IMG/VR virus record: IMGVR_UViG_3300049203_000165
Location: 1 to 25,895 of that record
DNA from: a virus
DNA: 25,895 nt
Reading direction: 5' to 3' (one strand)
The notes below the pieces were generated by a model. It saw nothing but the letters and a program-made list of their open reading frames with translations. It made no database searches and was not told where the DNA came from. Of this stretch, positions 1,444-23,391 are shown piece after piece (the stretch's first letter is position 1; the number at the start of each line of letters is the position of its first letter). Position numbers and translations under genes: made by a program.

Positions 1444-1461
1444 GGTTTCTCTTCTTATTTT

Positions 1462-1506
1462 TGGTGCGGCTGGCAGGATTCGAACCCACGACCCCTTGGT
1501 TCGTAG
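1462..1506 (-). tRNA. 3' half of tRNA-Arg(ACG); prophage attachment junction
   Basis: On the minus strand this reads as anticodon loop CTACGAA, 3' anticodon stem CCAAG, variable loop GGGTC, T arm GTGGG-TTCGAAT-CCTGC, 3' acceptor strand, A and CCA: exactly positions 32-76 of tRNA-Arg with anticodon ACG. The D arm and 5' acceptor strand are missing; the upstream DNA does not pair or resemble a tRNA. Tyrosine integrases commonly use the 3' half of a tRNA gene, with attP restoring the intact tRNA at one end and leaving a 3' fragment at the other. This fragment therefore marks the left prophage boundary; the 45 nt are the upper limit of the att core visible here. Confidence 0.85.
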
Positions 1507-5628: not shown

Positions 5629-8600
5629 CTAGCCGAGATTGGAGTAGGAAACGGTGTCCGCGGCGCTGGCCAGCTCGGTGACTGCGGTCGACGCGATGTC
5701 GCCGGTGCCGGCCTGGCCGCTGATGTTCACGCCGAAGGTGGCGCCGACCGTGGCGTTGTCAGCGGGCTTGCCGGTGCCCGTGACGCTTCCCCATGTGGCG
5801 CGCTGCGCCGCTTCGTTCGCGACTGCGTTGAGAAGCGCCTGGCGAGCCGAGTAGTAGGCCGCCCAGGTGGCTTGGTCGGTGGCCGGCGTGATGGGGGTGT
5901 CGGTTGTCGTGTCCGACCAGCTCGGCGACAGGCCGCTGAGGTAGCTGCTGAGCCCGGTGTAGGCGGCGCTGTACGCGTCGCGCAGCGAGTAGAGGCCGTA
6001 AGTGGTGCCCTGGGCATAGATGCCGCTGGACTCGTCGGCGATCGCCTGCCAAGCCCTGATGAGCGCCGGCTTCTCGGCCGCGTCGATGTAGCCGTTGCTG
6101 CGCATCGTGGCCAGCGCGCTGAGGGCGCTGCTGGCGTTGGACGCCGCAGTGTCGGCCGTGCCTTGAGCCGTCGAAGCGGCAGACGCCGCGGAATCGGCCG
6201 CACTTTGCGCCGTGTCGGCGAGCTGCTTGGCTTTGTCCGAGATGGCGTTGAGCAACGCTTGGCGGGCGGCGAAATAGGCGGCCCAGGTGGCTTGGTCGGT
6301 GGCTGGTGTGATTGGCGTGTCGGTGCTCGTGTCGCTCCAGCCAGGTGACAGCGAAGTCAGATAGGCACTGAGATCATTGCGAGCTGTTGCGTAGGCGTCT
6401 CGCAGCGTCGTCAGGCCGTAGGTGGTGCCGGAGCTGTAGATGCCGGCGTACTCATCGCTGATGGCCTGCCAAGTCTTGATCAACGCTGGCTTCTCGGCGG
6501 CATCGATGTAGCCGTTGCTGCGCATCGTGGCCAGCGTACTGAGCGCGCTGCTGGCATTGCTTGCAGCCGTGTTGGCCGTGTCCTGGGCAGCATCAGCCGC
6601 GTTCTGCGCGGCGGTGATGCTCGGCACGAGCGCCGAGTTCAGGACGGCACCGGTCTCGAAGTACTCGCGCAGGCTCGGCTCTGTGCCGTCGACCACGTTG
6701 ACCATGGGTCGGCCGAAGATTTGAGTAGCGCCGGCGCCGGCGTAGTACTGGTACGCGCGATGGCCAGCGGCGCCGGTTGCTGAGTGGTTCCAGTTGTTGC
6801 CGCTCTGGACAATGGCGCCGGTCTTGCAGTCATAGATGCCTGACCCGGCATGGCTGTTGTTGACGCTTCCATAGGGGAAGACGTAGCCGACGAAGAGGAA
6901 CCATCGATCCGTCGGCATCGCGTCGCGGGCGCCGACCGCGAAGTAAGGGTTGCCGTGGGTGTCGGTGCCGTTCAGATCGCACACAGAGCTTGGTTGCACG
7001 CCCCAGTACGCGTAGCCATGCAGGCCGGTGTCCCGGACTTTGATCGGCACCACAAAGCGATAGGTCTTTGATGGGTCAAGCGCCAGCGTGTTGGCGGCAT
7101 CCCAGCCGCCACCTGAATCGCCGCCGCCTGAAACCTCGTGGGCATACCAGACCACATCGCTGCCGCCGCGCGGGCCAGGGCCGCCGACGTCCTCGGTGGC
7201 GTACATGATGTTCTCTTCGCCGTTTGTTCCCCACGGGATCGTGGCGCCGCGCTTCCACCAGCCAACGTCGACCATGTTGTTGCGGATGGCATCGTCCGGT
7301 GGACGGTTGGCGACCTGCCCCCAGTTCGCGCGCTTCGCCGTTTCGTTGGCAATGGCGTTGAGCAGCGCCTGGCGGGTCGAGTAGTAAGCGCCCCAAACAG
7401 CTTGGTCGGTGCTGGGGCTGATGGGCGTGTCTGTCGTCGTGTCGTCCCATGCCGGCGAAAGTCCACCGAGGTAGCTTGCAAGGTTTGCATAGGCGGCCTG
7501 ATAGGTATCGCGCAGACCATCGAGGCCGTAGGCCGTCCCGTTGGCGTAGATGCCCGGCCGCTCGTTCGCTACGGTGACCCATTCTTTGATGACGGCGGGC
7601 TTCTCGGCGGCGTCGAGATAGCCATTGCTGCGCATGGTGGCAAGCGTGGTCAGCGCGTTGCTGGCGTTGCTGGCCGCAGTGTTCGCAGTGCCCTGCGCCG
7701 CGGCCGCCGCCGCGTAAGCAGCGCCGGCGGTCGCCACGATGGCATTGGGCGTTTCGCCAGCGGCCCACAGGCTCGCGTCGATCAGGCCCGGGGCCGATCC
7801 GGGATTGCCAGAGTCGGGCCCGCCGCTCTCCAAGGTGCCGATGACGTAATGAACGCCAGGCGTCGGCGTGAAGGTGGTCCAGGTGCCGGCGCTGTTGTCG
7901 TCGTACTGCCACTGGCCCTCGAAGTGGCGCGCGAGCACGTAGGGGCGGAAGCTGGTGCCGAGAACGCTGAAGCCCGGGCCGGAGATCGCCAGCATGATGT
8001 AGCCAGCCACCGGGCCGAAGTTGGTGAACAGCCCTCCGTTCGGGACCGGGGTGGCGACGCCATTGATGAAGATGCTGCCCGGCGCGTCGATGGGCGCGCC
8101 AGAGGCGTCTCGGCCATGGATATAGGCCTCGGAGAAGTTGACGGTGCCGGCGAAGTTGGCGACGTTGAGCTTGATGCCTAACGTGGTGCTGGGCCGGCCT
8201 CGGACGTAGTGCGCCCCGGTGATGGTGTACGACGTCGCGGCGACGTCGGCCAGGCTTTCCTGACCGCCTGAAAACACGTTGAACGAGGTGAGCTTGACGT
8301 AGACGGTCTTGCCGATCAAGCCGGGGTCCAGCGGGCCGCTGCGCGCGACGGCATCGTCGACGCGAACCCATGGCGTGCCGCCTCCATGTTCGACCTGAGC
8401 GGTGCCGTAGACGCCCCGAACGAGGCCAGCCAGCGTGTAGGCGTTGGGAGCTGTCAGCGTGGCTGTCTCATAGGCCATGTACTCGCCGGCGATCGAGCCT
8501 GACCGCGCGACGTAGAACAGCGTCGACAGGTTGGCCGCGTCGGCCGCGCTGCCACTGAGCAGCTGCTGCGCGGCGTTGGTGAACAGCGCCATGCTGCTGC

Positions 8601-10173
8601 CGCTGTCGAGCTGCGTGACGCCATAGCGGCTGTTGGTGCGCAGCGTGGTGATCTGGCGGTAGTTCGTACCGTCATAGCTCACCCACACCTGGCATCCGCC
8701 CCACAGCGGGTTGGTGCTGGCCGTGGCGATCGCCAGCTCGAGGCCGGTGGTGGTGAGGATGCCGGGCAGCTCGAAAACCACCGGGGCCAGCGCGGGGCCG
8801 GGGGATGCGTTGTAGTCGGGCGCATAGCCAGAGCCAGCCTGCGCGCCGTAGCGCGGCGCGGTGGCGATGCCGATCGGGGCATCCTCGGCAACGACCGAGA
8901 TCCGGCGATCGTCCAGCTCTTCGACTTCAAGGATGCGCACAGGCAGGCGGTCGAAGCCGAGGCTCGGCTCGGTCAGCGTGACGAGGCGCAGGGGCTTGAG
9001 CAGGCAGAAGCGCCACGAGAGGTTGAACTCATAGCGGTTGCGCTTGGCCAGCTCGTCCTGCAGCAGCTGCTGCGCGATCTGATCGCCGATGGCGGCATCC
9101 TTGATCTCGGGCGCGGCGATCGCCTCTTTCTCGCGGCGGCCGAACATCTCGATGCTGGCGATGTCGTCGCGGCTGATGGGCTGCTCGGCGTAGCCCGAGG
9201 CGCGGTTCTCGATCTTGAGCGTGATGACGTTGTAGCCGACGTCATCGCTGCTGGCGGTGTCGGCCTCGGCGCCGAGGCCGTAGTGCCGGCGCACGCGCAC
9301 CGGCGGCTCACCCTTGTCAGGGTGGAAATGGTCGTGCGTGAAATCGTAGTCAGGCGTCACCTCGGCCGTGAAGGTGGCGCCGTGGGCGCTGAGGTCGCTG
9401 TCGCCCAGCGGCACCAGCTCCAGCTCGGAGCCGGTGTAGGCGGCCTTGGTGTTGGTTAGCAGCAGGAGCTGCTTGAGCCAGTCGATGCAAGGCCGCTGCT
9501 CGGTCAGGACCGGGCTGAGCCACAGGCCCGCGGCGCGGCAATAGGCTTGGTAGCGGTCGAGCCCGAGCAGGCGGGCGCTGGGCCAGGCGCCGCCGGAGCG
9601 CGTGTCGGTGAGCAGGCGCTCGACGGCGACGCGCGGGTCGCCGTCGACGACGGTGCCGGACACGCCGGGCACGGTGCCCAGACCGCCGGCGTCGAGCTCG
9701 AAATTGTGGTTCGGCAGTCCGGCGCTGTCGTCGAGATCGTAGGCGGGGGCGTAGGCGTAGGCCAGACCGCTGTACCCGAGCGCCTTGGTTGGGTCGTTGG
9801 TGGACAGCCAGCTCCAGACCGCCTGGCCCAGGTTGCCGAGCTGCAGGGACAGGCCGCCTTCGGCGAGGCTGGCGAACTGGCTCTTGCCCCGCCACATGGC
9901 GCCGCCCCCGACGAGCGGGCCGCGGGCCAGGGCGATGACGACGGCGGCCTGATAGGTGTAGCTGACGGTAGTTTGTGTGCCGCCGCCCCCCTTGCCGCCG
10001 CCGCTTTGGCTCTCGCTGTGCTTGATGGCCTTGAACGCGCCGTAGTACAGGAGGTTGCCGGCGACGCGGCCGCGGCCGGTGAGCAGCCACGGGATGGTGC
10101 TGCCGTAGGCGCTGCTCTGGATGCGGATGTCCGCGATCTTCTGCTGCTCGTTGGTGTAGTTCTGGCCGCCCAT
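5629..10173 (-). CDS. Tail-tip / central fibre protein with repeated helical modules
   Basis: A 1514-residue protein that by size and position is the tip (host-specificity) protein, functionally like lambda gpJ and the GTA megatron. The N-terminus (MGGQNYTNEQQK) and a central block at about 270-430 fit putative phage tail proteins of the GTA type (PF13550-like). Next come beta-rich domains, then three copies of a ~119-residue helical module (about 826-945, 1196-1313 and 1336-1454), linked by Ala/Ser/Asn-rich coiled-coil-like stretches. A unique beta-rich region with many Trp and Tyr residues lies at about 946-1195, between copies one and two, and is a candidate receptor-binding part. The ATG at 10173 overlaps the stop of the NlpC/P60 gene as ATGA; the longer frame from 10296 adds 41 Arg-rich residues and is rejected. 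Confidence 0.85.
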   Translation of the reverse strand: MGGQNYTNEQQKIADIRIQSSAYGSTIPWLLTGRGRVAGNLLYYGAFKAIKHSESQSGGGKGGGGTQTTVSYTYQAAVVIALARGPLVGGGAMWRGKSQFASLAEGGLSLQLGNLGQAVWSWLSTNDPTKALGYSGLAYAYAPAYDLDDSAGLPNHNFELDAGGLGTVPGVSGTVVDGDPRVAVERLLTDTRSGGAWPSARLLGLDRYQAYCRAAGLWLSPVLTEQRPCIDWLKQLLLLTNTKAAYTGSELELVPLGDSDLSAHGATFTAEVTPDYDFTHDHFHPDKGEPPVRVRRHYGLGAEADTASSDDVGYNVITLKIENRASGYAEQPISRDDIASIEMFGRREKEAIAAPEIKDAAIGDQIAQQLLQDELAKRNRYEFNLSWRFCLLKPLRLVTLTEPSLGFDRLPVRILEVEELDDRRISVVAEDAPIGIATAPRYGAQAGSGYAPDYNASPGPALAPVVFELPGILTTTGLELAIATASTNPLWGGCQVWVSYDGTNYRQITTLRTNSRYGVTQLDSGSSMALFTNAAQQLLSGSAADAANLSTLFYVARSGSIAGEYMAYETATLTAPNAYTLAGLVRGVYGTAQVEHGGGTPWVRVDDAVARSGPLDPGLIGKTVYVKLTSFNVFSGGQESLADVAATSYTITGAHYVRGRPSTTLGIKLNVANFAGTVNFSEAYIHGRDASGAPIDAPGSIFINGVATPVPNGGLFTNFGPVAGYIMLAISGPGFSVLGTSFRPYVLARHFEGQWQYDDNSAGTWTTFTPTPGVHYVIGTLESGGPDSGNPGSAPGLIDASLWAAGETPNAIVATAGAAYAAAAAAQGTANTAASNASNALTTLATMRSNGYLDAAEKPAVIKEWVTVANERPGIYANGTAYGLDGLRDTYQAAYANLASYLGGLSPAWDDTTTDTPISPSTDQAVWGAYYSTRQALLNAIANETAKRANWGQVANRPPDDAIRNNMVDVGWWKRGATIPWGTNGEENIMYATEDVGGPGPRGGSDVVWYAHEVSGGGDSGGGWDAANTLALDPSKTYRFVVPIKVRDTGLHGYAYWGVQPSSVCDLNGTDTHGNPYFAVGARDAMPTDRWFLFVGYVFPYGSVNNSHAGSGIYDCKTGAIVQSGNNWNHSATGAAGHRAYQYYAGAGATQIFGRPMVNVVDGTEPSLREYFETGAVLNSALVPSITAAQNAADAAQDTANTAASNASSALSTLATMRSNGYIDAAEKPALIKTWQAISDEYAGIYSSGTTYGLTTLRDAYATARNDLSAYLTSLSPGWSDTSTDTPITPATDQATWAAYFAARQALLNAISDKAKQLADTAQSAADSAASAASTAQGTADTAASNASSALSALATMRSNGYIDAAEKPALIRAWQAIADESSGIYAQGTTYGLYSLRDAYSAAYTGLSSYLSGLSPSWSDTTTDTPITPATDQATWAAYYSARQALLNAVANEAAQRATWGSVTGTGKPADNATVGATFGVNISGQAGTGDIASTAVTELASAADTVSYSNLG
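5812..6168 (-). repeat. Tail-tip helical repeat, copy 3
   Basis: Encodes residues about 1336-1454 of the tip protein. Shared landmarks are ATMRSNGYIDAAEKPALI, a Trp-x-x-Ile/Val helix, TYGL, SLSP/GLSP, DTPITPATDQATW and ARQALLNA. It is very close to copy 2 at the nucleotide level and separated from it by only about 65 nt. Confidence 0.85.
6235..6587 (-). repeat. Tail-tip helical repeat, copy 2
   Basis: Encodes residues about 1196-1313. It has the same landmarks as copy 3 and only a few amino acid changes in the AEKPALI and DTPITPATDQATW blocks, so copies 2 and 3 appear to be the more recent tandem pair. Confidence 0.85.
7341..7698 (-). repeat. Tail-tip helical repeat, copy 1
   Basis: Encodes residues about 826-945, the most diverged copy (AEKPAVI, DTPISPSTDQAVW). 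A unique stretch of about 250 residues separates it from copy 2. Related modules recur in minor structural proteins of many phages. Confidence 0.82.
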
Positions 10174-10631
10174 CAGGCCTCCGGATGGAACAGGGTGAAA
10201 GCGCGCATCGGCCGGTCGGTCAGGGGCGCATCGGTCAGGCGCGTCTGGATGACGGCGCCGGCGTCGGCAAGGGCGTGAACGACCTCGAGGCCGCATACCG
10301 CCTGCACAACGACGCCGGCATGGCTGAAGGTGCGGCCAAACTTCCAGACGGCCACGTCGCCTGGCTTCAGCGGCTCGGTGGCCGCCAGCGGCCGGAGGAA
10401 CGCCTCGAGGCCGGCAAGGTAGACCTCCTCACTGCGGTGCATGTGCCACTGCGGTGCGTAGGGCCGTGGATCGACCGTGGCCGGCAGCGCACCGGCAGCC
10501 TGGAAGGTGGCCACCAGCAGCATCAGGCAATCAACGCCAGCGCCGCGCACGCAGGCCTGATGGTGGTAGGGCGTGCCGATCCAGCGCTGGGCTTCGTCCT
10601 GAAGCAGCGCACGAAGGTCTGATGGGGTCAT
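10173..10631 (-). CDS. NlpC/P60-family tail peptidase
   Basis: A 152-residue cysteine peptidase domain, the tail-associated cell-wall hydrolase used during DNA entry in lambda-like phages (gpK-type) and gene transfer agents. The catalytic Cys lies in VDCL (C35), the His in FSHAGVV (H104), with H119 as a likely third residue. WIGTPYHHQ (17-25) and LKPGDVAVW (88-96) match the family. It starts 1 nt after the stop of the DUF2163 gene and overlaps the tip gene by ATGA, the same gene order as in the GTA cluster. Confidence 0.9.
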   Translation of the reverse strand: MTPSDLRALLQDEAQRWIGTPYHHQACVRGAGVDCLMLLVATFQAAGALPATVDPRPYAPQWHMHRSEEVYLAGLEAFLRPLAATEPLKPGDVAVWKFGRTFSHAGVVVQAVCGLEVVHALADAGAVIQTRLTDAPLTDRPMRAFTLFHPEA

Positions 10632-17204: not shown

Positions 17205-19370
17205 TCAGGCGCCCGGGTTCTTCCAAAGACCGCGGTGGTCGACGGCCTTGGCGGCGAAGTCGAGGCGCGCCTTGACTTCCAGGCCGTCCACGTCGAAGCC
17301 CATGCGCTGCTCGGTGTAGAGGCCTTCCTCGCCTTCGAGGTAGGCGTACTCGACGGTGTCGATCTGCGCCGGGTCGGCAGCCAGGAACCACTCGAGCGGG
17401 TTGGTGGCGTCCAGGCGCGGCTCCACGACGAGGTCATAGGCGTTGCTGAAGACGTTCACGTCCGCGCTCTTGGTGGCCACAAGCAGCGCGCTGAGCAGCT
17501 TGCGGGCCTGCAGCTCGCGCGCCGAGCTGACGATCATCGTCTTGGCGACAAGGTTCAACGGCTGGTTGTTGCCGCCGAAGTCCTTCTGCTTGCGCATGCC
17601 CTGGGTGGCCTCGTCCAGCGTCGTCTCGGTGATGCCGCCGGCGGTGCCGAGGTTGCCGTGGTTCGCATGGAACAGCGTCGCACCATCGGCCATCACCGGG
17701 TTGCCCTTGAGGATGGCGTACACGGTGTCGCTCTCGAAGTCAGCCGCGGCACGGCCGTACATCTGCGGGATGCGGCTGAGGAAGTCGAGGTCATCGTTGA
17801 TGACGGCATGGCGCGTGACGCCGACCACCTTGCCGTAGGTGGCGAGCTGGATCGTCTCGCCGGCGTCGCTGATCTTGCCGCGCTTGAACTCGCCGAACTC
17901 GTTGACCTTCTCCAGTGCAAGGTTGCCGGCGACGGCGACGCGAGTGGCGGCGCGGAAGTCGCTCAGTGTGCCCTTGCGCGCCCAGGCCTTGAAGGTCTGG
18001 TTGGCGCTGGTGTACGCGTCCCGCAGCGTGCGGTTGACGGTGCTGGCCAGCGCGATCGCAAAGTCGCCCGTGCCATGCATGGAGCGGAAGCCCATCTCGT
18101 CGCTGTTGCCCATCGCGAGCGCCACGATGGCATTCCGGCCCATGCCTTCGGTGTTGACGCCTTGCAGCTCGAGGCTACGGCGCGCCAGCTCGAAGAGGGT
18201 GTAGCCGCGGAAGCGGCGAGCCGTCTCGGGCAGCGTCATCGAGGGGTTGGCGCGGTGCGCGACGGCCGCGGCCATGTCGGCACGGCGCTGCCGCTGCTCG
18301 TCCTGGGTCGTCTGGATACTGGCGGCGCCGCGGGTGGGGCCGCTGGCGTTGGAAGCCGTCTCCAGGCGGGCGAACATTTCAGAGCGGGCCGCGTCGACGG
18401 TAATGCCGCGCGAGATCATCGCGGCGACGTCTTCGTCGGTGACCGTGGCGCCGTGGGCGGTGCGCCGGAAGGCGGCGACAGCGGCGTTGATGCCGTTGAT
18501 GCGCGTGCGCTCTTCAGCGCGGATCTGCTCGGCGGCCGGCTGCTCGGGAGCGGTGCCAGCAGGGGGCGTCGAGCCACCGGCGCCGGTGGAGGTGACGGTC
18601 TCCGCCGCTTGGGCGACGGGAGTGCGACGGAATTGGGGCATGGTTTCCTCTTCAGGTTGAGATGACTCGCCGCGGGCGGCGACGACGGGCTCTTGGGCCG
18701 CAACGGGTGCTGCGGCTTGCGGGGCTTCGGGGGCACGAGTGACGAACTCGCAAGGGAAGGTTCGGCCGCCGACGAGCTGGGCGGCCTGGCTAAGCAGCTG
18801 CTCGGGGTCGGGGCGCTCGACGCCCTCCCCCAGCGAGCGGAGGCCGGCCAGCGGATCAGCGCCGATGGGCACCAAGCTGTTCTCGACGGGCTCCCAGTCG
18901 ATCGCCTGCCACACCGGGTAGCCGCCGTCGACCTCGGGGTCGAGCTTGAGATAGCGGTGGACGATGTAGCCCACCGAGGTGTTGCGCAGGATGCCGTTGA
19001 CGACGTCGCGCCAGTAGGCGTTGACTGTCTCGTCGCGGTCACTGAAGCGGGCGGTGGCTTCGCCGTTGTTGGCGTTCAGCCAGGCGTCTTCGTGCACGCC
19101 GAGGACGCTGGACAGGTCCCACTGCTGGTGGCTGTTGAGGAGCGGCGCGCCGGCCTTCAGGCGGTCCAGGCGGACGTGCGCCGGGTCCAGCGACAGCTCC
19201 TCCCAGTAGTACGACCAGCTGGCCCAGTCGAAGCGCTTGACGCGGGCGCCAGAGGTCCACACGAAGCGGAAGGTGCGGGCCTGCTCGTCGACGGCGCCGA
19301 TGGGCGCCTGGCGCGTTTGCAGCGGCATGTTGCGCACTTCGCTGCGCTGGAGGGCAAGGGGTTGGGGCAT
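17205..19370 (-). CDS. Prohead protease / major capsid protein fusion
   Basis: A 721-residue fusion known in several phage groups. Residues about 20-175 are a prohead protease domain with catalytic candidates H81 (LLNSHQQWDL) and S132 (ILRNTSVGYIV). Residues about 210-370 are low-complexity and helical, suiting a scaffold domain. Residues about 370-721 form an HK97-type major capsid protein that includes GRAAADFESD, LFHANHGNL and ARDL-type segments. The ATG at 19370 has GGAG 5 nt upstream. A second in-frame ATG, codon 244 at 18641, is preceded by GAGG with ideal spacing and would yield a free 478-residue scaffold-capsid product. Upstream lie a hairpin and the cargo interval. Confidence 0.9.
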   Translation of the reverse strand: MPQPLALQRSEVRNMPLQTRQAPIGAVDEQARTFRFVWTSGARVKRFDWASWSYYWEELSLDPAHVRLDRLKAGAPLLNSHQQWDLSSVLGVHEDAWLNANNGEATARFSDRDETVNAYWRDVVNGILRNTSVGYIVHRYLKLDPEVDGGYPVWQAIDWEPVENSLVPIGADPLAGLRSLGEGVERPDPEQLLSQAAQLVGGRTFPCEFVTRAPEAPQAAAPVAAQEPVVAARGESSQPEEETMPQFRRTPVAQAAETVTSTGAGGSTPPAGTAPEQPAAEQIRAEERTRINGINAAVAAFRRTAHGATVTDEDVAAMISRGITVDAARSEMFARLETASNASGPTRGAASIQTTQDEQRQRRADMAAAVAHRANPSMTLPETARRFRGYTLFELARRSLELQGVNTEGMGRNAIVALAMGNSDEMGFRSMHGTGDFAIALASTVNRTLRDAYTSANQTFKAWARKGTLSDFRAATRVAVAGNLALEKVNEFGEFKRGKISDAGETIQLATYGKVVGVTRHAVINDDLDFLSRIPQMYGRAAADFESDTVYAILKGNPVMADGATLFHANHGNLGTAGGITETTLDEATQGMRKQKDFGGNNQPLNLVAKTMIVSSARELQARKLLSALLVATKSADVNVFSNAYDLVVEPRLDATNPLEWFLAADPAQIDTVEYAYLEGEEGLYTEQRMGFDVDGLEVKARLDFAAKAVDHRGLWKNPGA
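18641..18651 (-). promoter_or_regulatory. Internal ribosome binding site and start for scaffold-capsid product
   Basis: On the minus strand AGAGGAAACC immediately precedes the ATG whose last two bases are at 18640-18639. The Shine-Dalgarno core GAGG is 5 nt from the start. The position falls at the junction between the protease domain and the low-complexity linker, as the nested start of Nu3 does within lambda C. Confidence 0.55.
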
Positions 19371-19388
19371 GAGGGCTCCAGAAAGGAC

Positions 19389-19420
19389 AAAGCCCGCCGG
19401 GCTTGCGCGCGGCGGGCTTT
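19389..19420 (-). terminator. Perfect hairpin upstream of the capsid gene
   Basis: Ten-base perfect arms AAAGCCCGCC (19389-19398) and GGCGGGCTTT (19411-19420) enclose a 12-nt loop, just before the ribosome binding site of the protease-capsid gene. With A and T at the outer ends it resembles a bidirectional terminator, though the T-run is short (TTTG). If active, late messages reaching the capsid gene need antitermination; otherwise it may stabilise a 5' end. Confidence 0.5.
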
Positions 19421-19475
19421 GCGGTGAAGGGCAGGTTTTTCTATCGCGATCGGCAGGCGGGTGAAACGGGTCGAG

Positions 19476-19501
19476 CAACAAAAACCCGCACTGGACGGGC
19501 T
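19476..19501 (-). terminator. Rho-independent terminator of the PEP-CTERM gene
   Basis: Eleven nt after the stop of the PEP-CTERM gene, arms AGCCCG (19501-19496) and CGGGTT (19488-19483) form a 6-bp stem with a 7-nt loop, followed by TTTTTGTTG on the minus strand. Short but with a good U-tract. Confidence 0.6.
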
Positions 19502-19511
19502 CTACGAAGGT

Positions 19512-20306
19512 CTATCGCGGCTCTACGCTTCGGAGCCGAACCGATAGGCCCAGAGCGGCGATACCAAGCACCAGCAAGGCATAGCTGCTGGGCTCAGGCA
19601 CCGGCACTGCGACGAAACCGTCGGCCGCGAATGCATGGCCGAAGGTCTGGAACGTCCCAAGCGTTATCTCGGACGTGTCATTGACGAACGACCCGGACAT
19701 TGATCGGTCCTCTTTGTAGTGCCAGAAGACGCTTTCGTCCCCAGGTGGCGTGGTGTAAAACGTCGAGAGGCTCGGATTTTGAAACCACCATTCGCCGCCG
19801 ATGGTTCCACTCAGCTCTAGCGTCGTCGATGTGACAAGGTCCTTGAAGCCATAGCCCAGGGTCGCAACATCAAAGTGTGCCTGTACAGATGCCCTCAACT
19901 CGGTCATCGGCGAAAGAACGAAGTTTCCGTAAAACGAACCACCAGCACCTGATCTCGAATTGCTCAGCGCCATCGCAGCGTTGGAAAAAGAAAATGTGCC
20001 TTCCAGAAGGCTCCCAGCGACGCTGCTTGATGCACTCCCCGCGGCGATGGAGACGCTACGTGAACTGACCCATGTGTCGATTGCACGAGCTTGATTCGTG
20101 TCTTGCGGTTCATGGACACCGTCGGACGCAAAAGCGCCGTGGCTCCAGACCGGATCAGTGAAAGTGACGCTCGGCGTGATGCCGTCATCCAAGTCGATGT
20201 CCACCAGCTGAAGCTTCACCTCGAAGGACACGGCAGCGCTAACTGACGCTGAAACTTGGTTTGACAACGCCAGCAGCCCAATCACAACAGCACATATTGC
20301 TTTCAT
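19512..20306 (-). CDS. PEP-CTERM sorting-domain exported protein (prophage cargo)
   Basis: A 264-residue secreted protein. The N-terminus is a Sec signal peptide (hydrophobic 3-15, likely cleavage near SASVSA), the middle is a Ser/Thr/Gly-rich beta-type domain of no recognised family, and the C-terminus is a classic PEP-CTERM signal: PVPEPSSYALL (235-245), a transmembrane stretch, then Arg at 257 and 259. Such proteins are processed by a host exosortase and tied to exopolysaccharide and surface biology. The ATG at 20306 is chosen for the GGGGAG 5 nt upstream. A hand-counted 60-base sample (19921-19980) is 53 % GC, against 70 % in a sample of the capsid gene, so it looks acquired. It interrupts the head genes between portal-esterase and capsid and has its own terminator. 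Confidence 0.88.
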   Translation of the reverse strand: MKAICAVVIGLLALSNQVSASVSAAVSFEVKLQLVDIDLDDGITPSVTFTDPVWSHGAFASDGVHEPQDTNQARAIDTWVSSRSVSIAAGSASSSVAGSLLEGTFSFSNAAMALSNSRSGAGGSFYGNFVLSPMTELRASVQAHFDVATLGYGFKDLVTSTTLELSGTIGGEWWFQNPSLSTFYTTPPGDESVFWHYKEDRSMSGSFVNDTSEITLGTFQTFGHAFAADGFVAVPVPEPSSYALLVLGIAALGLSVRLRSVEPR

Positions 20307-20359
20307 GGTTCTCCCCTTTCCCAACATTGAGACCGCCGATCTTCAGCCAAGCACATCAA

Positions 20360-20389
20360 TGGCCACCCCCCTCAGGTCCGGGGTGGCCA
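20360..20389 (-). terminator. Hairpin between the SGNH esterase and PEP-CTERM genes
   Basis: Perfect 10-bp arms TGGCCACCCC (20360-20369) and GGGGTGGCCA (20380-20389) with a 10-nt loop lie 6 nt beyond the esterase stop. Downstream on the minus strand comes TTGATG, a poor U-tract, so termination may be partial. No clear sigma-70 promoter was found between it and the PEP-CTERM start. Confidence 0.5.
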
Positions 20390-20395
20390 CTGTGG

Positions 20396-21901
20396 TCACC
20401 ACGCTCCGGATGCCGCGAGCTTGCTGGCCCACTCCTGCGCGAAGGCGGGGTACTGGCTCGCCAGCAGGTGCGGAGCGTTTGTGCCGCTGATGGTGATCGA
20501 CGGTGGCTCCGGGTACGTCTGCACGTTGTAGCCCCAAAGCGCGTAGAGGTCACCGCCCCGGACCACGTTGGCCGGCGTGTTGAAGCCGGACCCGAATGCG
20601 TCGTCGATCCCCAGGCGAAGGGTCTGGAACTGATCCGGGTAGGTGGCGTCCGCGAAGGTGGGCGCATTCGGGTTAAAGCATGTGAAGCCGACCGCCACCT
20701 TGTAGCCTTGCGAGGTGAAGTAGTTCACCATGTTACGTATGGCCTGGGCATACCAACCACGGATCGTGGATTGGCTTCCGACGCTACCCTGTGCATCACT
20801 CTGTCCATTGGCCATGAAGACCCAGCGCTCGGTCACGTTGGTAAGCGCATCGAGCGCGGTCTTCGTGCGAACCATTAAGCCGAGCGGGTCAAAGCCGAAC
20901 TCACCGGAGGCCAGCACTTTGAAGGCCGACAGCGTGCCAAGCGTGGTGGACAGGCACGTCCACACCATGCCCGTCGTCTCGGTGAAGGTGTCGCCAACGA
21001 GTGCAGCGGACATCGCCCGGCCGCCCACGTCCGAGACAGGCTGCGTAGCACCCGTCTTCTTGTCAAGCGCTGCGGGCACCAGGATGTAGTCCAGATTTGT
21101 CGCGCCTCCACCGCTCGGGATGGCCGCGCCGCTGTTGTTCGTCGCGTAGCGGCCAGCGCCGGTCGTGCACCGCAAAACGCGCGTTCCGCTGACGATGACG
21201 TCGCCATAGTCTCCTGCGTCACCGGTCCCGATGCTCGCGCGCTGGCCAAAGAATGTTGTGTTCGCCGCCCATTGAAAGACCTGGCCGCACCACTGCTTGA
21301 TGAACGTGCTGCCGCCGATGGCGCAATTGGTCCACTTCAGGTTGTACCCGCGAGCGCGAAGCAATGCGTCCAGATGCGGAATCACCGAGCCGAGCGGTGA
21401 CACGCTTGGGGCGATAGGGTCCGCAAGGCCGTTGTTCGAGCTGAAGAGCGTGATCTGCGCCTGGTTGCCTGCGCCGGCCCAGGTGCGAGCGGAGCCGCGC
21501 TCGTTGGACTGGCCGACCATCGCGACGCCTCGTGCACCGAGGATGCCAGCGATCCCAGTCGCTGACACCGCAGCTGAGTTCGAGGAAGTACCAGCGGCTT
21601 CCGATGAGACAGCTGCAGAGACCGCATCTCCGGTCAAGGCGGTGACGTTGAGACGCCAGTAGCGGTAGGTCTCCGTCGTCGAGGCCTTGGCGCTACCCAC
21701 GCTCGTGCCGGAGGGGCTGAGCGTCGCCAAGGTCACCCAGCCGATGGCGTCATTGCTGCCCTGCCAGAGGGCAGTGGCGCTGACGCTCCCCGTGCCGGTG
21801 ACAGTGACAGTGCAAGCATGGTCGCCCTCTGTTGCGAAGACGGCCGCGCCAATGGCAACGGCTGTAAGCCGGCCGAGTTGCGTAAGCAAGGGATCGTTCA
21901 T
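20396..21901 (-). CDS. SGNH/GDSL-type esterase with N-terminal virion-like beta domain
   Basis: A 501-residue two-part protein. Residues about 1-105 form a Ser/Thr/Val-rich beta module (LWQGSNDAIGWVTLATLSPS, 45-64) like those in phage decoration and fibre proteins. Residues about 120-501 look like an SGNH hydrolase: nucleophile S132 in VGQSNERG (129-136), block II glycine in NCAIGGST (192-199), a NGQSDAQ block (365-371), and H478 near the C-terminus. The usual Asp of the DxxH motif appears as Asn475 (NAPH), so activity may rely on a Ser-His dyad. Sialate/carbohydrate O-acetylesterases of this class start with GQSN. The ATG overlaps the portal stop as ATGA, so it is co-translated with the portal. 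A longer frame to 23338 only shadows the portal gene and is rejected. Confidence 0.75.
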   Translation of the reverse strand: MNDPLLTQLGRLTAVAIGAAVFATEGDHACTVTVTGTGSVSATALWQGSNDAIGWVTLATLSPSGTSVGSAKASTTETYRYWRLNVTALTGDAVSAAVSSEAAGTSSNSAAVSATGIAGILGARGVAMVGQSNERGSARTWAGAGNQAQITLFSSNNGLADPIAPSVSPLGSVIPHLDALLRARGYNLKWTNCAIGGSTFIKQWCGQVFQWAANTTFFGQRASIGTGDAGDYGDVIVSGTRVLRCTTGAGRYATNNSGAAIPSGGGATNLDYILVPAALDKKTGATQPVSDVGGRAMSAALVGDTFTETTGMVWTCLSTTLGTLSAFKVLASGEFGFDPLGLMVRTKTALDALTNVTERWVFMANGQSDAQGSVGSQSTIRGWYAQAIRNMVNYFTSQGYKVAVGFTCFNPNAPTFADATYPDQFQTLRLGIDDAFGSGFNTPANVVRGGDLYALWGYNVQTYPEPPSITISGTNAPHLLASQYPAFAQEWASKLAASGAW

Positions 21902-23391
21902 GTTGCTTCCTTGGTGGTAGAGCCCGCGACTGCCAGCAGATCGGTGGGGCTGAGCTTCAGGTCGGTAACGGTGGCGTCGGTGTCGAAGATGAGCTGCAGC
22001 AGCGCCAAAGCGTCGCGCTCGGTCTTGATCTCGGCGAAGACGGTCTCGGGGTCGAAGCCGCGCTCGCGCAGGGCTTCGCTGAGGGACTTCAGGCCGGCGC
22101 GGATCTCTTCCTTGTCGGCGAGCGTGTCCTTCAGCGGGTCGACCATGGGCTTGCGCGGCGTGGTGATGCGGTCGGGCTTGATGCCAACCTTGATCCCGTT
22201 GAGCTGGGCGACCTCCCGCCACCAGCGGCGGATGGGCTTGATGAACATCGGGATGAAGGTCAGCCACTGCTCGCCGTCGACGAGCTGGTGGAAGTGCACG
22301 AGGCCCGCGCGGTGCGACGTGTAGTTGCTGCGCGAGGTGTCGCCAGTGAGCTGGGCGTAGGTGACGCCTGCCCCCACGGCGATGGCGTGGAGCTGGGTGG
22401 CTGTGTATTCCCCATACCCCCCCGTCGCCTGTGGCGAGCCAAAGGTGACGGTTTCGCCTTGGGTGAGGTACTTGATGAGGCCGGGGCTGACCTTCTCGGT
22501 GACGCGGGCGGCGGTCTGCCCGGCGCCCTCTTCCTTCTTCAGGTCTCCCATGTGCATGCGGGGCGAGTCGGTCGTCACGAAGGCAGTGAAACAGGCCTCG
22601 ATCTTCTTGCGCACCAGCTCGGCCTCTTCGTAGCCGTCGAGGTCGCGCATGCGCATGAGACTGACAGCGAGCGCCGAGATCCCGCGCACTTGGCTGATGC
22701 GGTCCTTGCTGTAGAGGTGGATGATCTCGCTGGCCGGCACCAGCTTGCTCTGCAGCGCGCGGGCCGCCAGGGCCAGCTCGCCGGGGTGGTCGGCGAACAG
22801 CCAGTAGCCGGTGCGGGCGCCGAGCCGGTCGAAGCGCACGCCCATGATGTCGACGAAGTCGCCGTCGACGCCGGTCTTGGTGTGGTCGAGGTGGTCGGGC
22901 TCGAGGAGCTGGATTTGAAAGGGGACGGCGAGGCCGTCGACGGGCTTGCGCCAGCGGCGGCGCAGCAGGACCTCGCCGCTTTCCTTCCACGTCATGGCGG
23001 CCAGGCGCTGGATGCCACCGAAGTCGAGCTGCCCGTCGGCGTCGCAGGCCTCGCACCACTCGGCCCACAGGCGCCGCTCGACCTTGTTGTCGGGGATGAC
23101 GGTGATGCCGGTGCCGACGATAGCCGTGGCCAGCGTGCGCACGGCCGACTTGGCGTACTCGTTGTCGCGCACCATCTGGCGCGCGCGGTTGCGGCTGGTG
23201 GCCAGGCTGGGCAGGACCTCGGCGTTGGCGCTGCCGCCGCCGGCCTTCCAGCCGGCGGTGCGGCGGCCCAGCTCGGCGGCCTCGTACTTGCGCAGCACGT
23301 CGAGCTGCATGCGCGCCATGCCACGGTGAACCGCCCACGCCGGGGCCACGGCTGCGATCGTGCGATCGAGCCAGGTGAGGTGCATCGCCAT
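21898..23391 (-). CDS. Portal protein (lambda gpB family)
   Basis: A 497-residue portal of the lambda family; twelve copies form the head vertex through which DNA is packaged and released. The N-terminal RNRARQMVRDNEYAKSAVRT (67-86) with IVGTGI shortly after, WKESGEVLLRRRW (135-147), LLEPDHLD (162-169), the IHLY segment and LTGDTSRSNYTSHRAGLV are hallmarks. The start is at M1 (23391) or M3 (23385); neither has a strong Shine-Dalgarno. It follows the gpW-like gene by 6 nt and overlaps the esterase start. Its length is near that of lambda gpB. Confidence 0.93.
   Translation of the reverse strand: MAMHLTWLDRTIAAVAPAWAVHRGMARMQLDVLRKYEAAELGRRTAGWKAGGGSANAEVLPSLATSRNRARQMVRDNEYAKSAVRTLATAIVGTGITVIPDNKVERRLWAEWCEACDADGQLDFGGIQRLAAMTWKESGEVLLRRRWRKPVDGLAVPFQIQLLEPDHLDHTKTGVDGDFVDIMGVRFDRLGARTGYWLFADHPGELALAARALQSKLVPASEIIHLYSKDRISQVRGISALAVSLMRMRDLDGYEEAELVRKKIEACFTAFVTTDSPRMHMGDLKKEEGAGQTAARVTEKVSPGLIKYLTQGETVTFGSPQATGGYGEYTATQLHAIAVGAGVTYAQLTGDTSRSNYTSHRAGLVHFHQLVDGEQWLTFIPMFIKPIRRWWREVAQLNGIKVGIKPDRITTPRKPMVDPLKDTLADKEEIRAGLKSLSEALRERGFDPETVFAEIKTERDALALLQLIFDTDATVTDLKLSPTDLLAVAGSTTKEAT

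Follow-up and report, generated by a model that had tools for sequence, protein, structure and literature searches.

The PEP-CTERM signal is the tag with which some bacteria direct exported proteins to their polysaccharide coat, and PEP-CTERM proteins and exosortases shape the flocs and biofilms of environmental bacteria. To our knowledge, most PEP-CTERM substrates have no known role. One for which a role has been described is PepA, a PEP-CTERM protein that a Burkholderiales strain uses in forming flocs and that reduces its soluble polysaccharide; some PEP-CTERM genes depend on RpoN, for example in Aquincola (PMC9850573). Among phages, the closest described genes are those of lysogenic conversion, such as sieA or gtr of P22 (PMC10883804). 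The window analysed here, the whole 25.9-kb IMG/VR record IMGVR_UViG_3300049203_000165, is a provirus end in which a slot of variable content separates the portal and capsid genes; a gene for a tagged protein with an apparent signal peptide has probably been acquired there recently. We put the chances slightly above even that this PEP-CTERM gene is moron-like cargo of a temperate phage, adding an exosortase substrate to the exopolysaccharide matrix of the lysogen.

A PEP-CTERM gene and its provirus setting

The open reading frame lies on the minus strand (19512–20306; ATG at 20306, stop codon at 19512–19514) and encodes 264 aa, with an apparent signal peptide at residues ~1–20, a middle domain at ~21–232 and the PEP-CTERM region at 235–259. 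An earlier sequence-only reading had given its span as 19476–20389, which contains the gene together with both of its flanks. The N-terminus (MKAICAVVIGLLALSNQVSA) is by eye an apparent Sec signal peptide, and the protein end (VPVPEPSSYALLVLGIAALGLSVRLRSVEPR) combines the C-terminal motif, transmembrane helix and basic end of a PEP-CTERM sorting domain, with matches above both curated cut-offs (PF07589 in Pfam over residues 235–259, 27.9 bits against 20.7; TIGR02595 in NCBIfam, 20.6 against 16). A ribosome binding site (20307–20322, minus strand; GGGAAAGGGGAGAACC, followed by the ATG) precedes the gene. That reading had described an exported protein with a signal peptide, a PEP-CTERM tag and its own ribosome binding site, and had regarded it as an exosortase substrate; the tag and the ribosome binding site are confirmed, the signal peptide is an apparent one, and the sequence supports the view of the protein as an exosortase substrate. 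The protein had no match in PHROGs, PADLOC or PDB sequences, no enzyme motif was recognised in it, and its score against the floc protein PepA family NF033554 (21.9 bits) was below the equivalog cut-off of 80. Single-sequence AlphaFold prediction gave a mean pLDDT of 29.

The opposite end of the record is bacterial (bases 1 to ~1460). This flank carries, on the minus strand at 1–1306, a U32/UbiU gene (1–1119, running off the end; PF01136, 216.6 bits) and a DUF2249 gene (1007–1306; PF10006, 79 bits), and is separated from the phage genes by the 3' end of a tRNA (1461–1500, minus strand; GTGGGTTCGAATCCTGCCAGCCGCACCA). The 5' part is missing, no whole tRNA was found, and this 3' end is a probable attachment site. 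On the phage side, the gene closest to the host junction encodes a D12-class adenine methyltransferase (1624–2412). The best DNA match of the flank in a plasmid collection was to Ideonella dechloratans (77%), and among 330 sampled genomes of the order of genome G226 the flank UbiU shared 78% protein identity with that of G425; G226 was assigned to Burkholderiales on the basis of its 16S rRNA gene, which was closest to Cupriavidus (90% identical, best of the sample). A search for the tRNA junction in G425, the genome with the closest UbiU, did not find it. The record is thus a provirus end in a beta-proteobacterium chromosome, and the host flank supports the lysogenic setting assumed by the sequence-only reading. 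No exosortase gene occurs within the 25.9-kb record. A PEP-CTERM protein is encoded by one member of the GTDB family that UbiU places closest.

The portal–capsid slot and the origin of the gene

Minus-strand gene order in the head region is terminase, portal (21898–23391; PF05136, phrog_21), esterase-like gene (20396–21901; 501 aa, GQSN motif, no Pfam match), PEP-CTERM gene, capsid and protease fusion (17205–19370; PF25209, phrog_4523) and cement protein. In distant relatives the portal and capsid genes are separated by only 106 bp (L127) or 263 bp (L134), and in the nearer clade by 2.5–3.3 kb of varying content. L004 has a DUF7483 protein and a BNR-like protein there and L005 a GDSL esterase and a tyrosine integrase; in L126 a polysaccharide deacetylase follows the portal, and in L008 kelch and repeat proteins precede the capsid. 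The PEP-CTERM gene therefore stands as an extra gene between core genes that are nearly adjacent in L127 and L134 and enclose other cargo in L004 and L005. No PEP-CTERM gene was seen in the slot of the relatives examined, nor were close homologues seen at the same spot that were virion proteins without the tag. Because the contents vary and a capsid-proximal hairpin is shared, the slot is a property of the clade, with the PEP-CTERM gene one of many occupants. The integrase gene of L005 (4952–5983 of that contig) lies directly before the capsid gene. Residues 119–501 of the esterase-like protein of the window are shared (68%) with a protein encoded on a contig from an unrelated phage (L143, 5794–7122), and the N-terminal parts of the two differ, which suggests a modular enzyme. 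Elsewhere in the window, a large tail protein (5629–10296) contains three repeats of ~85 aa or more (TMRSNGYIDAAEKPALI...).

Three hairpins lie around the gene, all on the minus strand. A GC-rich hairpin without a U-run lies between the esterase-like gene and the PEP-CTERM gene (20358–20392; −28.5 kcal/mol on a 56-nt stretch), a weak terminator-like hairpin with a T-run (CCCGTCCAGTGCGGGTTTTTG) lies directly 3' of the PEP-CTERM gene (19470–19492; −12.9 on a 56-nt stretch; absent from the consensus scan output), and a strong hairpin precedes the capsid start (19388–19424; fold −31.2). L004, L005 and L006, which carry other cargo, have similar hairpins immediately ahead of the capsid gene, and the capsid-proximal hairpin is therefore part of the phage slot and not of the PEP-CTERM gene. 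Of the hairpin in front and terminator behind that had been described earlier, the front hairpin stands, the terminator-like T-run hairpin is weak, and the strong second hairpin belongs to the slot. An Rfam scan found no RNA above threshold, and no sigma-70 promoter was found before the gene. A sigma-54 promoter was also considered there and dropped, its score being matched in 9.7% of shuffles.

The composition of the gene sets it apart from both the phage and the host flank. Its GC content is 56.7% and its GC3 0.633, against GC3 values of 0.79–0.95 in 16 other phage genes and 0.909 in the host flank (GC 73%), and its codon usage (RSCU) correlates with that of the phage at 0.37, compared with 0.79–0.98 for the other phage genes. 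The lower GC noted from the letters is thereby confirmed, the atypical composition is that expected of a moron, and slot comparison and codon use together bear out the description of the gene as cargo inside the head operon. The distance in GC3 and RSCU from phage genes and host flank suggests a recent arrival from another genome.

Searches for full-length relatives found none in INPHARED or PLSDB, none by peptide patterns in species genomes (sensitive to close relatives only), and in IMG/VR none except L002 and L003, both of which come from this phage. These two differ from the window by 1 mismatch in 10,142 bp, are identical in the PEP-CTERM gene and both break within it, 21 bp apart; because they cover the region, its junctions are not a one-off chimera. 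In 399 sampled Burkholderiales genomes, matches to the protein were nearly all confined to the tail, and by such tail matches roughly 45 of the 399 carry PEP-CTERM proteins. One genome (G739, locus L093) encodes two tandem PEP-CTERM proteins beside a P-type ATPase gene, in what looks by eye like a chromosomal setting, and one of the pair matches the middle domain with a Smith-Waterman score of 90 (1000 shuffles: mean 38, sd 6.4, maximum 68). The middle domain, previously called unrecognised, thus has a chromosomal Burkholderiales PEP-CTERM relative well above shuffled controls; the homologue search that the sequence-only reading had called for succeeded for this domain and, beyond L002 and L003, failed for the full-length protein.

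PEP-CTERM genes in other phages

The gene stands less alone among phages than the sequence-only reading had implied: roughly 25–34 other IMG/VR contigs carry PEP-CTERM genes. A strict DNA pattern for V-P-E-P-x-x-x-A-L matched 34 IMG/VR stretches, ~25 of them with true tails, and a second pattern added at least about nine more. All 10 of the IMG/VR phage PEP-CTERM proteins scanned exceeded the Pfam cut-off, and eight PEP-CTERM contigs (L049, L054, L057, L066, L067, L070, L072 and L074) carry viral hallmark genes, namely those for major head, terminase, tail, polymerase, protease or lysis proteins. An INPHARED search with a 27-aa consensus tail gave no match, which is weak evidence with so short a query, and no paper on PEP-CTERM genes in phages was found in the literature, most subscription journals lying outside the search.

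One PEP-CTERM family with five copies (L047, L051, L056, L068 and L072) has dN/dS values of ~0.1–0.2 and is under purifying selection. In a second group (L059, L060, L070, L074 and L075) dN/dS is 0.3–0.5, with distances that are partly saturated. Members of the family with the NPPESLVLTSNV motif (L059, L060, L070, L074, L075, L156, L159 and L204) occur in many metagenomes on phage contigs of GC 0.43–0.65, and a second recurring phage PEP-CTERM family with the motifs LQLSADVNG, CADQ and ADQTINGV is found in L044, L046, L055, L063, L067, L071 and L181. In L044, a sigma-54 promoter match (TGGCACGGTGCTTGCG, 11/12) lies 55 nt before the PEP-CTERM gene start; its score is reached in 0.04% of 200-bp stretches, and because about 20 genes were examined we treat this site as a lead only.

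Since unrelated phages also carry PEP-CTERM genes, phages may supply proteins to the surface coat of their hosts. Tentatively, and with less than even confidence, we suggest that unrelated phage groups supply exosortase substrates to the exopolysaccharide-linked sorting of their hosts, as a widespread, undescribed route of matrix or surface remodelling that is partly under host sigma-54 control. Should phages indeed encode such proteins and selection maintain the genes, the protective matrix around their hosts would be a target of phage action. Phage biology would then offer a way to test what PEP-CTERM proteins do, and the phages of soil and wastewater bacteria would seem to hold a new class of genes that alter the host surface.

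Candidate roles and comparison with known systems

As moron-like cargo, the protein would be exported by Sec, held in place by its C-terminal helix and cut by a host exosortase. It would then pass into the lysogen's exopolysaccharide layer or become attached to it, and may there alter aggregation or surface to the advantage of the lysogen or the detriment of other phages. Export, processing by an exosortase and passage into the matrix are proposed on the strength of the tag and of what has been learned from PepA; expression by the prophage, and a gain from it, we infer. Of the features of a moron, the extra gene between core genes and the atypical composition are present, the terminator behind the gene is weak, and no sigma-70 promoter was found. 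The late-operon position, the lack of a recognised sigma-70 promoter and the weak sigma-54-like site count against the moron reading, and a gene in a late operon may be switched on only during lysis, too late for display on the surface to be of much use.

A neutral hitchhiker, that is, a gene of bacterial origin that entered the slot recently, brings the phage no benefit and is due to be lost again, we regard as rather unlikely. It would account for the foreign codon use, for the gene being found in no other phage species of the clade and for the missing clear promoter, but the frame is intact with an apparent signal peptide, ribosome binding site and sorting signal, the gene is present in all records of the phage seen, and purifying selection acts on PEP-CTERM genes of other phages. 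Less probable still is a late lytic function, in which the protein would be exported late and act with its esterase-like neighbour on the envelope or polysaccharide layer, helping progeny to escape or spread. Position and orientation within the late operon fit this, as do the polysaccharide deacetylase and GDSL esterase among the slot genes of relatives; however, hairpins flank the gene on both sides, the protein lacks a recognised enzyme motif, and its sorting signal would keep it on a cell undergoing lysis. An assembly chimera or misread host DNA, to which the deviant composition and the contig breaks of L002 and L003 inside the gene could point, is very improbable, since both junctions are contiguous in the window and separately in L002 and L003, and the host flank is at the opposite end of the record with a GC content of 73%.

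The PEP-CTERM genes of other IMG/VR contigs (L044, L067, L070, L072, L074 and others) likewise encode exported PEP-CTERM proteins carried by phages, but have unrelated middle domains, belong to unrelated phages and share no common slot. The tandem pair at L093 has one member with a related middle domain and the shared motifs DGITPS and F-x-L-[ST]-PMT, but is chromosomal, lies beside the P-type ATPase gene and shows ~30% identity. Like substrates of the PEP-CTERM/exosortase (EpsH, XrtA) systems, such as the floc protein PepA of Zoogloea and Aquincola, the window protein has an apparent signal peptide, a C-terminal PEP-CTERM region and a Burkholderiales setting; unlike them, it is encoded by a provirus, scores below named-family cut-offs and has no exosortase or polysaccharide genes beside its own. 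From phage morons and lysogenic conversion genes it differs in that no sigma-70 promoter was found before it and its product would depend on a host sorting system, and it shares with them the position of an extra gene between core genes, the atypical composition and the hairpins around it.
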